This document shows positions 3,133 through 6,646 of a stretch of 55,340 nucleotides of DNA, one piece after another. Position numbers and translations under genes: made by a program. This stretch comes from Ruminococcus sp. GTDB lineage: Bacteria > Bacillota > Clostridia > Oscillospirales > Ruminococcaceae. The stretch spans positions 1-55,340 of the forward strand of contig JAFTYF010000026.1 in NCBI GenBank assembly GCA_017461395.1. The letters run 5' to 3'. The notes beneath the pieces are model-generated. The model did not search any database, was not told the origin of the DNA, and saw nothing but the letters and a program-made list of their open reading frames with translations. How positions within the stretch are numbered: position 1 is the first letter of the stretch; each line of letters begins with the position of its first letter.

Positions 3133-3701
3133 ACTTCCTCATCCTCTCCGCCGTCCTCATCGGGTAATGGCTTGTCAAAGATGGTAACATTTATTTTTCC
3201 GTAGCGGTAGGTTTTTCTCAGTACCAGACCTTCCGGCGTTGCAGGAACATCTGCCTCAGACTCATACTCGCAGATTATGCATCCGCCCTCCTGAAGCTTT
3301 GCGGCAGCGATCGGAAGAACAGTGTCTATATGTCCGTGTCTATAGGGAGGATCAAGAATAATCACGCCGAAGCTTTGTCTTGTCAGCCTGATGAAATCGA
3401 AGCTGTCACGGCTGATGACTTCAGAGCAGCGTTCAAAGCCTGTCGCACGAAGATTATCATTTATGCAGCTTATTGCGGCACGGGAGCTGTCAACGAACAC
3501 AGCTCTTTTGGCGCCTCTGCTCAGAGCCTCGATACCCATCTGACCACTTCCGGCAAAGAGATCAAGCACATAGGTTCCCTCTATCTGGAACTGCACAGCA
3601 GAAAAAACTGCCTCCTTGACCTTGTCAGCGGTAGGGCGGACATCGAATCCCTCGGGAGCCTTAAGGCGGCGCCCTCTTGCAATACCGGTTATAACTCTCA
3701 T
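3129..3701 (-). CDS. rsmD: 16S rRNA (guanine-966 N2) methyltransferase
   Basis: A 190-residue SAM-dependent methyltransferase. It opens with MRVITGIARGRRLKAP and RPTADKVKEAVFS, both characteristic of RsmD. The SAM-binding motif I is VLDLFAGSGQMGIEALSRGA and the catalytic motif IV is DPPY. It modifies G966 (E. coli numbering) of 16S rRNA during 30S assembly. The C-terminal tail is acidic (PLPDEDGGEDEEV). It is the first gene of the rsmD-coaD-coiled-coil unit, with a promoter about 90 bp upstream. Confidence 0.96.
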   Translation of the reverse strand: MRVITGIARGRRLKAPEGFDVRPTADKVKEAVFSAVQFQIEGTYVLDLFAGSGQMGIEALSRGAKRAVFVDSSRAAISCINDNLRATGFERCSEVISRDSFDFIRLTRQSFGVIILDPPYRHGHIDTVLPIAAAKLQEGGCIICEYESEADVPATPEGLVLRKTYRYGKINVTIFDKPLPDEDGGEDEEV

Positions 3702-3784
3702 TGAAATATCTCCTGAATCTTCTGTTTAATGCCCAAAACAGACCTTGCCGCCAATACGGGACAACGCTCAGCTGGTACACATAT

Positions 3785-3813
3785 ATTATAGCCTGTTTCT
3801 CAGAGTTTGTCTA
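3785..3813 (-). promoter_or_regulatory. Sigma-A promoter for rsmD-coaD
   Basis: On the minus strand TAGACA and TATAAT are separated by exactly 17 bp, reading toward rsmD, whose start is about 85 nt downstream. Confidence 0.65.
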
Positions 3814-4121
3814 TAATTTTTTCCAAAGATAGTTGAATCTCCACAAAATACAGGAATAAAATTCGTGATATTTGATAATATAGACTATAACTCCGGCAAA
3901 TTTCCGGCGTCAGAAGCGCTCCGAAACAAATTCCTTTCCACTGATATGCCGTTATACAGCCATTTTTCTGTCCGATTTACCATGTAATCACGCACTGTAA
4001 AATCCGAAATTGCGCTGAACTGCCGCATGGTATTTTCGACAAAAAAATCAATAACATTTTGTTATTTTCTCCAAAAAAATTAGTTTCAGTATAATTGCAC
4101 TGGAATTTTTTCAAAAAGCTG
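3814..4121. other. Intergenic stretch without recognised gene
   Basis: Between the divergent promoters at 3785-3813 and 4122-4150 there is about 300 bp of AT-rich DNA. No ORF with a ribosome-binding site, tRNA or clear repeat was seen. It contains several T- and A-runs near 4048-4140 that could act as an upstream element for the strong rightward promoter. Confidence 0.5.
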
Positions 4122-4150
4122 TTGATTTTTTTTGAAGGATATTGTATAAT
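4122..4150 (+). promoter_or_regulatory. Strong sigma-A promoter
   Basis: TTGATT (4122-4127), 17-bp spacer, TATAAT (4145-4150). The predicted start is near 4157, leaving a leader of about 135 nt before the first supported start codon at 4292. Confidence 0.8.
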
Positions 4151-4156
4151 ATATAT

Positions 4157-4279
4157 GTATTTATGTGCCGTGAGCTTTTAAAGGACATTATGCAGTCCTC
4201 CAGTATAACTCACGAACCTTGGGAAATCGGCAGGCCGCAGCCGTAAAGCGGCAGCCGGAGTGGTGCTCCACACCGGCGG
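4157..4279 (+). ncRNA. Structured 5' leader, candidate cis-regulatory RNA
   Basis: Three nested or adjacent helices can be drawn. CGTGAG (4169-4174) pairs with CTCACG (4209-4214) and encloses AGGAC/GTCCT (4182-4186, 4195-4199). CGGC..GCCGC (4228-4238) pairs with GCGGC.GCCG (4248-4257). CCGG-a-GTGG (4255-4263) pairs with CCAC-a-CCGG (4268-4276) and ends 5 nt before the ribosome-binding site. The last two helices share 4255-4257, so they exclude each other. The segment does not match the conserved cores I know of cobalamin, TPP, SAM, c-di-GMP, THF, ZTP, ydaO or T-box leaders. The function is inferred from shape only. Confidence 0.55.
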
Positions 4280-4291
4280 ATGGAGATCATT

Positions 4292-6646
4292 ATGGATATT
4301 TTACTCGTAACATCTTCGTTTAACGATGAAATACACGGCAGCGATGATAAGAAGAAAACCGGCTGCGGAATCTCTCTTATCAAGCCGGAAAACATCTCAA
4401 AATACCGCATAACCAGCGTTATGACTGACCTTAAGGAAATCACCTGCGAAAAATGCAAGGAAAGACTCGCTAAAAAAATTATCAGATTAGATAAAAAGGA
4501 AATGGCAAAGATCCTTAAGGAAGAACGTGCTAAAGCCAAAAAGGGTATTGAGGATGAGGGTATCATCCCGCTCGGAAATACTACCGCAAAGATAACAAAA
4601 TCCCCTGAACAGAAGCGTCAGGAAGAAGAATCAGCCGCTGAGGCAGCAAGAAGAGAGGCAGAAGCTAAAAGAGCTGCCGAAGAAGCTGCAAGAGAAGCCG
4701 AAGAAGCCGCAAGAAAAGCTGCTGAGGAAGAAGCAGCAAGAGCCGTTCAGAAAACTATCCCCGGCACAGGTATTGCTATGGACAACAGCCTTGCTCAGTT
4801 CGCTATAAATGTTCCTAAGGAAGAAGAACCCGAGCCGCAGCCTGTTCAGGATGACTTCCTCGCACAGTTCGCTATCCAGAAGCCGGAAGAAGAAACACCG
4901 GCAGAGGATGAAATTCCTGCTGTACAGGATGACTTCCTTGCGCAGTTCGCTATACCGGTTCAGGAAAATAATGTTCAGCCGGATTACCTCTCTGACGAAA
5001 GCACCGACAGCAGCTATGACTACGAAAGCTCATCCGCTGCATACGAAAACGACGATTCTGTTATCAATGTTTCCGACGATGAACTGATAAGCATCTCCGA
5101 AGAAACTGCACCAGCAGAACAACCTGAAACAATTCTCACCGGAAACTCTGACTGGGATTTCGTTGCAAATCAGATATTCGGCTTTGAAGGCGTAAATACA
5201 TCTGAACCTGAGCCGCAGCCGGCAGAAATGGAAGAACTTCCCCTGCCATCACAGACTGCTGCTCCCGAAACCGCAAGAACACCTGAACCCAAGCCGGCTG
5301 TTTCTGCACTTGATGACATCACACCGCCTGTTCTTGAAGATATAGCTCCTCCTGTTCTTGAGGATATTTCTCCACGCCCAATCGAAAATGTTACAGCTCC
5401 AGTGCTTGAAGAAATAACAGCTCCTGTCCTTGATGAAATGATAATTCCTGAGGTTCCCGTTCTCAGCGGACTTTCATCAGTAAAGAATGAGGAAACAGTT
5501 CAGCCGGCAGCAGTTGAAGAAGCTTCATCCATTATTGAAGAAGCTGCACCTGTTGATGAATTCGACGGCTTTGAGATCCCCGAAGTTCCGGTGCTCAACA
5601 ACATTTCAGCTATAGCAGAACAGCCCGAAGCTGCCGCTGAAGAAGCCGCAGAGACCTTCGAGGAAGAGACCGAGGAAATCATTGAGGAAGAAATTGCAGA
5701 AACAATCGAAGAAGCTGTTGAAGAAACAGCTGAGGAAGCAATTGAAGAAGAAATTCCGGAAGCTATAGAAGAACCGGTTCAGGCTGCACCTCCTGTTCAG
5801 CAGGCTCCTGTACAGACTGCACCTCCTGTTCAGCAGGCTCCTGTACAGAGCGCTCCTCCTGTTCAGCAGGTTCCTGTACAGACTGCTCCCCCTGTTCAGC
5901 AGGCTCCCGTACAGACTGCTCCCCCTGTTCAGCCTCAGGTTATCAGTGTTCCGCAAATCTCAGGCTACGATCAGAACGGTCAGCCGGTATATACATATGT
6001 ACAGATGCAGATGACAGGCTACGATCAGAACGGTCAGCCGATATACAATCCGATTGGTGGACAGCAGCTCCCTATACCGCCGCAGGCTCCGCAGCGCAGA
6101 CCTATGATGGGTATGAGCAGCACTATGGGCGGACAGATGGGCGCAAATATCCAGAAGCCATTCGTTCAGCTTGACGCTCCTACTCAGACTCCTGCATACA
6201 TCAAGGCAAAGCTCGGCAGTCAGGGCACAGACGGTCAGTATATGCAGCCGTCCGCAAACATCTCAAAGATTGCTGTGAATCCGCACTCAAAGGAGACTTC
6301 AAAGGCTTTCGTAAACGCTATTTCAAGCTCCAAGGATTATGCAAACAAAAACCTTATCGAAACTCAGGGACTCCGTGCAAATTCACCTATTCTCTCCTCT
6401 GTTGAAGATGTACTCTCACAGATGGGTGATAATTCTCTCAAAAACCAGAAGAAGGCAGAACAGGCTGAGGTAAAGCTCGGCTCTGAGTATAAGGCTCCAG
6501 CCGCAAGACCTTCTGCTCCAAGACCTGCACCGAAAAAGCAGGAAGAAGATATCAGATTCATGACAAAATCTGAACTTAAGGAAAAGAAAAAGCAGGATAA
6601 ATATGCTGCAAAATTCAAGAAGGATCTCGCAAAGAGAGGCTTCTGA
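4292..6646 (+). CDS. Repeat-rich acidic/proline-rich protein with N-terminal Cys motif, function unknown
   Basis: 784 residues when started at 4292; an ATG at 4280 contains the ribosome-binding site GGAG (4282-4285), so the later start fits better. No signal peptide or membrane helix. Residues 1-75 form a compact region with C25 and CEKC (52-55), possibly metal binding. Residues 105-150 are a charged Glu/Ala/Arg helix. Three copies of LAQFAI follow (from 167, 190 and 215), then PPVLEDI-type repeats (345-380), a Glu-rich tract (446-493), five APPVQQ(A/V)PVQ(T/S)-like repeats (499-547), two GYDQNGQP(V/I)Y repeats (558 and 576), and a basic C-terminus (755-784). This suggests a flexible multivalent scaffold. 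I do not recognise the family. The TPR protein downstream is its likely operon partner. Confidence 0.85.
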   Translation: MDILLVTSSFNDEIHGSDDKKKTGCGISLIKPENISKYRITSVMTDLKEITCEKCKERLAKKIIRLDKKEMAKILKEERAKAKKGIEDEGIIPLGNTTAKITKSPEQKRQEEESAAEAARREAEAKRAAEEAAREAEEAARKAAEEEAARAVQKTIPGTGIAMDNSLAQFAINVPKEEEPEPQPVQDDFLAQFAIQKPEEETPAEDEIPAVQDDFLAQFAIPVQENNVQPDYLSDESTDSSYDYESSSAAYENDDSVINVSDDELISISEETAPAEQPETILTGNSDWDFVANQIFGFEGVNTSEPEPQPAEMEELPLPSQTAAPETARTPEPKPAVSALDDITPPVLEDIAPPVLEDISPRPIENVTAPVLEEITAPVLDEMIIPEVPVLSGLSSVKNEETVQPAAVEEASSIIEEAAPVDEFDGFEIPEVPVLNNISAIAEQPEAAAEEAAETFEEETEEIIEEEIAETIEEAVEETAEEAIEEEIPEAIEEPVQAAPPVQQAPVQTAPPVQQAPVQSAPPVQQVPVQTAPPVQQAPVQTAPPVQPQVISVPQISGYDQNGQPVYTYVQMQMTGYDQNGQPIYNPIGGQQLPIPPQAPQRRPMMGMSSTMGGQMGANIQKPFVQLDAPTQTPAYIKAKLGSQGTDGQYMQPSANISKIAVNPHSKETSKAFVNAISSSKDYANKNLIETQGLRANSPILSSVEDVLSQMGDNSLKNQKKAEQAEVKLGSEYKAPAARPSAPRPAPKKQEEDIRFMTKSELKEKKKQDKYAAKFKKDLAKRGF

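Follow-up and report, generated by a model that had tools for sequence, protein, structure and literature searches.

A covarying pseudoknot predicted close to the Shine-Dalgarno sequence of many unrelated genes in Ruminococcus and its relatives

The window analysed, a stretch of 55,340 nt from Ruminococcus sp., carries on its + strand a gene (4292..6646) for a protein with a zinc-binding-like N-terminal domain and a long repeat-rich region containing DDFLAQFAI motifs. An earlier note on this DNA had described the RNA ahead of the gene as an unclassified leader with mutually exclusive helices, in the layout of a translational riboswitch or protein-binding leader. Which part of this leader is conserved, before which genes does it occur and what might it do there?

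Conserved fold of the leader

Several parts of the leader were found as described. The promoter TTGATT-N17-TATAAT is present at 4122..4150 on the + strand (TTGATT 4122-4127, TATAAT 4145-4150; 10 of 12 consensus matches), and a loose-pattern scan detected a promoter-like pair upstream in 54 of the 58 distinct leaders of the window's gene family. The two-part 5' stem occupies 4169..4214 (+ strand), with CGTGAG (4169-4174) opposite CTCACG (4209-4214) and an inner AGGAC (4182-4186) opposite GTCCT (4195-4199). Among relatives the kind of stem recurs but its sequence does not; the fold z-score of this stem was -0.99 in the window and averaged -1.37 in 20 leaders hand-picked from the 58, 12 of which had z < -1. 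A hairpin near the ribosome-binding site was likewise recovered (4254..4277, + strand; pairs 4254-4258/4273-4277 and 4260-4263/4268-4271), ending 4 nt before the Shine-Dalgarno (SD) sequence GGAG (4282..4285, + strand). The translation start is most likely ATG 4292 (MDILLV...) and not ATG 4280 of the longest open reading frame, because the former aligns with the conserved start of the relatives and fits the SD spacing.

Folding of the single sequence 4140-4300 was unremarkable (z -0.72; 47 of 200 shuffles folded equally well), so that support for structure is comparative. A search with 4157-4320 in 60 relatives, the own genome counted, gave matches in 17 genomes, centred on 4220-4251. Sequence conservation among relatives lies mainly in the 3' half of the leader (from about 4220) and hardly in the 5' stem; in one relative, contig G011:C7 has a 93% match to the leader's 3' part.

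The core common to the relatives reads AAAUCGGC-N(1-3)-CCGC-U/A-GCCG-UAAA-GCGG. The loop of the CCGC/GCGG hairpin contains GCCG, with which CGGC can pair, and the core is therefore predicted to form an H-type pseudoknot. In the window, all on the + strand, stem S1 is formed by CGGC (4228..4231) and GCCG (4240..4243), stem S2 by GCCGC (4234..4238) and GCGGC (4248..4252). Loop L1 (4232..4233) is 2 nt long, varying in length and sequence in alignments A3 and A4; loop L2 (4239..4239) is 1 nt, with 1-2 nt in relatives in the same alignments; and the A-rich loop L3, at least 4 nt long, is UAAA (4244..4247), its AA being present in 67 of the 69 rows of A4. In general, S1 has 4 bp and S2 4-6 bp, with loops of 1-3, 1-2 and at least 4 nt.

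Covariation was strong only once diverse members were included. The initial set of 19 cores was 100% paired and nearly invariant, with one double-change pair, a value equalled by 85 of 500 shuffles. An earlier alignment comprised 70 sites placed by the model, 64 of them distinct; in it 94.7% of 588 cells were paired, changes on both sides occurred at 6 of 10 pairs (shuffle mean 2.8, reached in 1 of 500) and the covariation score was 0.150 vs 0.099. In A4, with 69 sequences, 95.1% of 654 cells were paired, against 29-56% in controls with slid partners. Double-change cells numbered 59 vs 24.3 +- 3.9 in shuffles, and both-side changes occurred at 7 of 10 pairs; none of 500 shuffles was as high in either count, nor did any reach the covariation score (0.234 vs 0.125), while the count of further pair types was equalled by 2 of 500. 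These shuffle statistics ignore the kinship of the sequences, and the loci entered were chosen by the authors (71 and 72, of which L116 in the first set and L237, L240 and L261 in the second gave no match).

The two stems contribute differently to these counts. S1, which was paired in 98.5% of its cells, is absent as a pairing from every covariance model and had only three double-change cells, at two of its four pairs in A4; examples are ACGGC/GCCGU to AUGGU/GCCAU before guaA and CGGC/GCCG to CGGU/ACCG before rsmD. S2 was paired in 92.6% of cells and changed on both sides at five of six pairs (for example CCGC/GCGG to UCAC/GUGA), counts that lean towards the fold since its pairs were built into the models.

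Comparison thus supports a pseudoknot at 4228-4252 as the predicted conserved part of the leader, and not the two competing helices proposed before. The GC-rich helix that had been drawn at 4228-4257 requires CGGC (4228-4231) to pair with GCCG 4254-4257, instead of with the loop strand GCCG at 4240-4243. In 28 of 98 distinct sites, a minority, the 12 nt that follow S2 contain a 4-nt partner for the 5' strand of S1. The third hairpin is optional, and mutual exclusion is not supported as a general rule. The frequency of such partners nevertheless exceeds that in shuffles of the same 12 nt (mean 11.1, maximum 20 in 300 shuffles); the nested fold may therefore compete in a subset of leaders, that of the window included. 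Two procedures were abandoned: nested single-sequence folding as a guide, which yields this competing helix, and a MAFFT alignment of the cores, which put the S1 strands out of register and was replaced by a set of equal loop length and by Infernal alignments.

Genes and genomes carrying the element

Covariance model R3 matched the window at 4221..4256 on the + strand with 38.3 bits (E 4.1e-6), the runner-up place within the window scoring 12 bits; R2 and R3 had been built from sequences that included the window's own copy. R1, built from genus members, matched 97 of 120 genomes of the genus at E <=0.05. R2 matched 18 of 396 genomes of the family (10 of 126 genera) and R3 matched 19 of 394 genomes of the order (12 of 168 genera). 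Few of the sampled genomes outside the genus match, which could mean a narrow model or a patchy distribution of the element. Some weak matches, L348 and L352 included, look like chance.

An exact-pattern search of the genome collection gave 72 loci, of which 49 were retained. The remaining 23 were dropped because, on reading by eye, no convincing start and SD followed the motif (L026, L031-L033, L040, L042, L047, L048, L053, L054, L061, L062, L065, L067, L073, L074, L077, L081, L083, L085, L086, L088, L093); 19 came from distant taxa and 4 (L031, L033, L048, L061) from Clostridia or Oscillospiraceae MAGs. The retained sites precede homologues of the window's gene in 45 cases, as read by eye (44 are recovered by a pattern), guaA in three (L025, L044, L056) and rel in one (L041).

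The predominance of one gene in this set suggested that the element might be the operator of the zinc-finger protein encoded downstream, which would regulate itself and have the other genes as further targets. The protein's zinc-binding-like N-terminal domain would suit such a role. In it H15, C25, C52 and C55 are invariant among 19 sequences of the family, and the domain is followed by a predicted 34-residue helix and by low-complexity and 33-nt repeats with the DDFLAQFAI motifs. No Pfam or NCBIfam family was found for it. The fold predicted for its first 115 residues (pLDDT 79.7, pTM 0.58) gave no Foldseek match at E <=0.001 (best 2.2), and its profile gave none below E 0.19 against PDB sequences. 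The protein was found, however, in only 7 of 100 family genomes, and the element occurs in genomes in which it was not found (G064, G104, G109); the leaders of four more distant homologues (L378, L380, L381, L382) lack the element by eye. A protein so rare, and not found in several carriers, is unlikely to be a general factor, and autoregulation was dropped as very improbable.

The element was then seen before many other genes. In loci of the genus read upstream by eye, it was present at 15 of 30 guaA and 10 of 30 rel genes (L123 could not be resolved and L106 ends at a contig edge). Among 60 further model matches, from those listed, 27 precede rsmD, 21 the window's gene family, 4 guaA and 2 rel, these labels being assigned by short sequence patterns; five others precede pnp, purM, rpiB, a choline-binding-repeat protein and a P-type ATPase, and one is L311, in which rsmD lies about 180 nt beyond the element. 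Five loci were left out of the reading of downstream genes (L168, which is the locus of L034, L182, L226, L231 and L234).

In other genera and families the downstream genes, those ending in -like being the authors' reading, are rex, pstS-like, rpiB, glgC-like, guaB, efp, a sigE-like factor, murD-like, trkA-like, Asp23-like, secG (in three genera), EF-G-like, ricT, fabZ, an S4-domain protein, lemA-like, rbfA, rpoZ, a Mini-III-like RNase, cysS-like, ilvE-like and genes for secreted proteins. Twenty fragments were scanned for NCBIfam product names. The scans back guaA, rel/spoT, secG, efp, rex, rpoZ, rbfA, pnp, purM, guaB, purE, sigG, parB/noc, the EF-G-like factor, fabZ, rpiB and ricT; several full-length cut-offs were missed because many queries were fragments. 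The S4-domain protein gave a weak Hsp15 match only and the Asp23-like protein a weak AmaP match only, no match was obtained for the CarD-like protein, and the name rsmD rests on a scan of the window's own RsmD protein. With a strict descriptor run over the collected loci, 198 distinct proteins were found encoded downstream. They fall into 47 clusters, of which a few are spurious, and most downstream families are single cases. In one taxonomic family (f3), five genomes have the element before a family of large secreted proteins (L338-L341, L345). Palindromic GC-rich stretches of the AAGCGGCGAAGCCGCT type were seen just upstream of several guaA leaders (L142, L146, L150, L155).

Three sites were found in the window's genome at E 3.4e-4 or better, the fourth place having E 2.5: the window leader, rel, and a secreted protein with repeats read by the authors as of choline-binding type (G000:C29:13648-13684; L186, L208). 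L305 has the element before the same kind of choline-binding-repeat gene. A covariance-model search of the window found no site in its own rsmD and purE leaders, and guaA was not found in the genome assembly. In another family, a single genome (G583) has 13 sites at E <=0.005 (L337, L354, L357-L367), preceding rbfA, rpoZ, fabZ, a carD-like gene, a lemA-like gene, a Mini-III-like RNase gene and others, which makes it a good organism for study of the regulon.

Copies dispersed in this way, up to 13 per genome, could also belong to a small RNA gene or to a mobile repeat that landed upstream of genes; sub-threshold matches of Rfam's M23 RNA, typed 'Gene; sRNA', lie on the element. Against this, in 59 of the 60 further matches a recognisable gene follows the element directly in the sense direction, the one that was read, the gene being farther away in one, and the element also occurs between genes that look cotranscribed, such as recJ and rel. 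We consider a small RNA gene or mobile repeat highly improbable.

The presence of guaA and rel among the first genes led to an early reading of the element as a compact guanine-nucleotide or (p)ppGpp riboswitch, through which a growth signal would set the translation of rel, guaA, guaB, purE, purM and growth genes. Its occurrence before these five genes and pnp fits this reading, and other H-type pseudoknot riboswitches, such as preQ1, are comparably small (PMC11625349, in excerpt). The reading was demoted once rsmD, secG, fabZ and secreted proteins appeared: most downstream families have no purine link (also murD-like, trkA-like and glgC-like genes), few unpaired nucleotides are conserved apart from AA in L3, L1 being variable, and the SD lies outside the pseudoknot. 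We give it a small chance. The fit is poor for any single-ligand riboswitch, given how many unrelated genes the element precedes; of the earlier interpretation, an unclassified, conserved, structured leader with its last helix just before the SD is supported.

Position relative to the Shine-Dalgarno sequence and possible action

Of 98 distinct sites, 97 have an SD either within 15 nt of the element or 0-7 nt beyond the end of an intervening hairpin; start and SD were picked by a script that favours strong SDs. The distance from S2 to the SD is 15 nt or less in 23 sites (median 5 nt). The other 75 have longer spacers; in 74 of them the spacer forms a hairpin with a minimum free energy below -2, and from its end to the SD there are 0-7 nt (median 3). 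Spacer energies in these 75 sites were far below those of mononucleotide shuffles (mean z -3.44; 72 of 75 below -1). Most guaA leaders read do without the third hairpin and have the SD directly after the pseudoknot. For a control, the stretch of 26 nt ahead of the SD was folded at 172 element-bearing starts and at 516 other starts of these loci, both groups having been sorted by a pattern. The fraction with a helix at -5 kcal/mol or below whose end lies at most 7 nt from the SD was 0.76 in the former and 0.15 in the latter. A helix ending shortly before the SD, as the earlier note had seen in its third helix, is thus a general feature of the sites. The layout of L311 is an exception. Overall, the element keeps a conserved place before genes, as a cis-acting leader does.

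Such constancy might be purely structural: the pseudoknot could shield the SD from upstream pairing, or protect the mRNA, with no regulating factor involved. The GC-rich fold looks independent of any ligand, the nearness to the SD is constant and the genes are varied. For a passive insulator, however, any hairpin would suffice, and the near-invariant GGC/GCC and AA would not be needed; part of this invariance is there by construction, since the models used to find the sites score these letters favourably. A passive role is in our view unlikely, though it deserves some weight.

Two observations argue for translational rather than transcriptional control. Copies occur between cistrons: in the window's genome (L207) recJ stops at 1499, the model match begins at 1501 and rel follows, and the order recJ, element, rel is found again with a short gap in a relative (L041). 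Furthermore, no terminator-like site was found on the + strand at 3700-4700.

What comparison across genomes shows is a predicted fold that keeps its position next to the SD and recurs before many unrelated genes. How it acts is a matter of judgement, and we put the chances at about even that the element is a dispersed cis-acting module of translation initiation read by a general factor. The pseudoknot, with or without the hairpin, would place the end of a stable helix a few nucleotides before the SD. A fold directly 5' of the SD would lie where the mRNA leaves the 30S subunit. Action would be expected at translation initiation, at which the folded domain would come into contact with the platform side of the 30S subunit; the state of the module (bound, unfolded or docked) would depend on a factor shared by these mRNAs. 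The downstream genes share no pathway, and a general factor is therefore favoured over a metabolite; candidates would be a ribosomal protein or a global RNA-binding protein, not one pathway metabolite.

A wider proposal is offered tentatively, and we hold it somewhat less probable than its opposite: that bacteria of the Oscillospirales type use one pseudoknot as a general tag for translation initiation, read next to the SD by a dedicated protein or a specialised 30S component, which would co-regulate the stringent response, purine synthesis, rRNA methylation, ribosome maturation, secretion and sporulation, with Rfam's M23 as one narrow branch. A structured leader is usually linked to a single ligand or a single protein family. 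If the proposal is true, a post-transcriptional regulon would be defined by a single folded RNA domain. A covarying pseudoknot reused before many unrelated genes, near the SD, would offer a handle on global translational control in abundant, little-studied gut bacteria, and the element would give M23 a context and a testable function.

Comparison with known systems

The absence of a known riboswitch core from the leader, remarked on before, agrees with the Rfam searches: no match at gathering score was found in the window or in 9 further loci, and the NiCo riboswitch model reached 15.5 bits in the window vs a cut-off of 37. A 2017 paper is reportedly the source of many such Rfam motifs, and the element may already be described there. 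No description of it was found among the open-licence papers listed, as covered by titles and abstract openings; the main text of PMC11109978, PMC8632094 and PMC6429828 contains no mention of M23, guaA or Ruminococcus.

M23 RNA (RF03006) was the only Rfam family found repeatedly on the element (L236, L239, L361 and L254 among 20 loci scanned, all below the cut-off of 41.2 bits). It scored 22.9 bits in the window and 35.8 bits at best elsewhere, and reached 41.2 bits in none of 197 family genomes and none of 197 order genomes. The alignment to the window runs end to end (model positions 1-53) with the parts in the same order, and R2/R3 and M23 matches coincide at L228/L249, L234/L239 and L361/L374. 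Other M23 matches fall in GC-rich coding DNA, several of them looking like chance, and a control search also matched one unrelated genome (Methanosarcina). Like the element, M23 has a 5' CGGC, a GCCGC/GCGGC hairpin with loop GCCG, a second hairpin and a GGAAAGG-like stretch, and its printed consensus can form the same pseudoknot. It differs in being typed as an sRNA in Rfam, whereas for the element the range of genes and the closeness to the SD were read from the loci. M23 is likely a branch of the same superfamily, the window element lying outside M23 by Rfam's rule.

SAM-II and SAM-V are compact H-type pseudoknot riboswitches in leaders near the SD, and preQ1-I shares this architecture with the element. 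The element differs from these riboswitches in giving no Rfam match, in having the SD outside the fold and in preceding genes that are not tied to one metabolite.

Pseudoknots read by ribosomal proteins offer precedents. In mycobacteria uS15 acts as a repressor by way of a pseudoknot that lies upstream of the initiation site, and the uS15 operators of rpsO in E. coli and mycobacteria resemble the element in having a pseudoknot at or upstream of that site, control by uS15 being exerted at translation initiation (PMC10931766, in excerpt). There, however, a ribosomal protein regulates its own gene, whereas the element stands before many other genes; rpsO was not recognised by eye among the downstream products read. 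Targets of bS1 sit 5' of the SD and include pseudoknots bound with high affinity, according to the same excerpt (PMC10931766). The element shares its place 5' of the SD with these bS1-binding pseudoknots and with translational enhancers.
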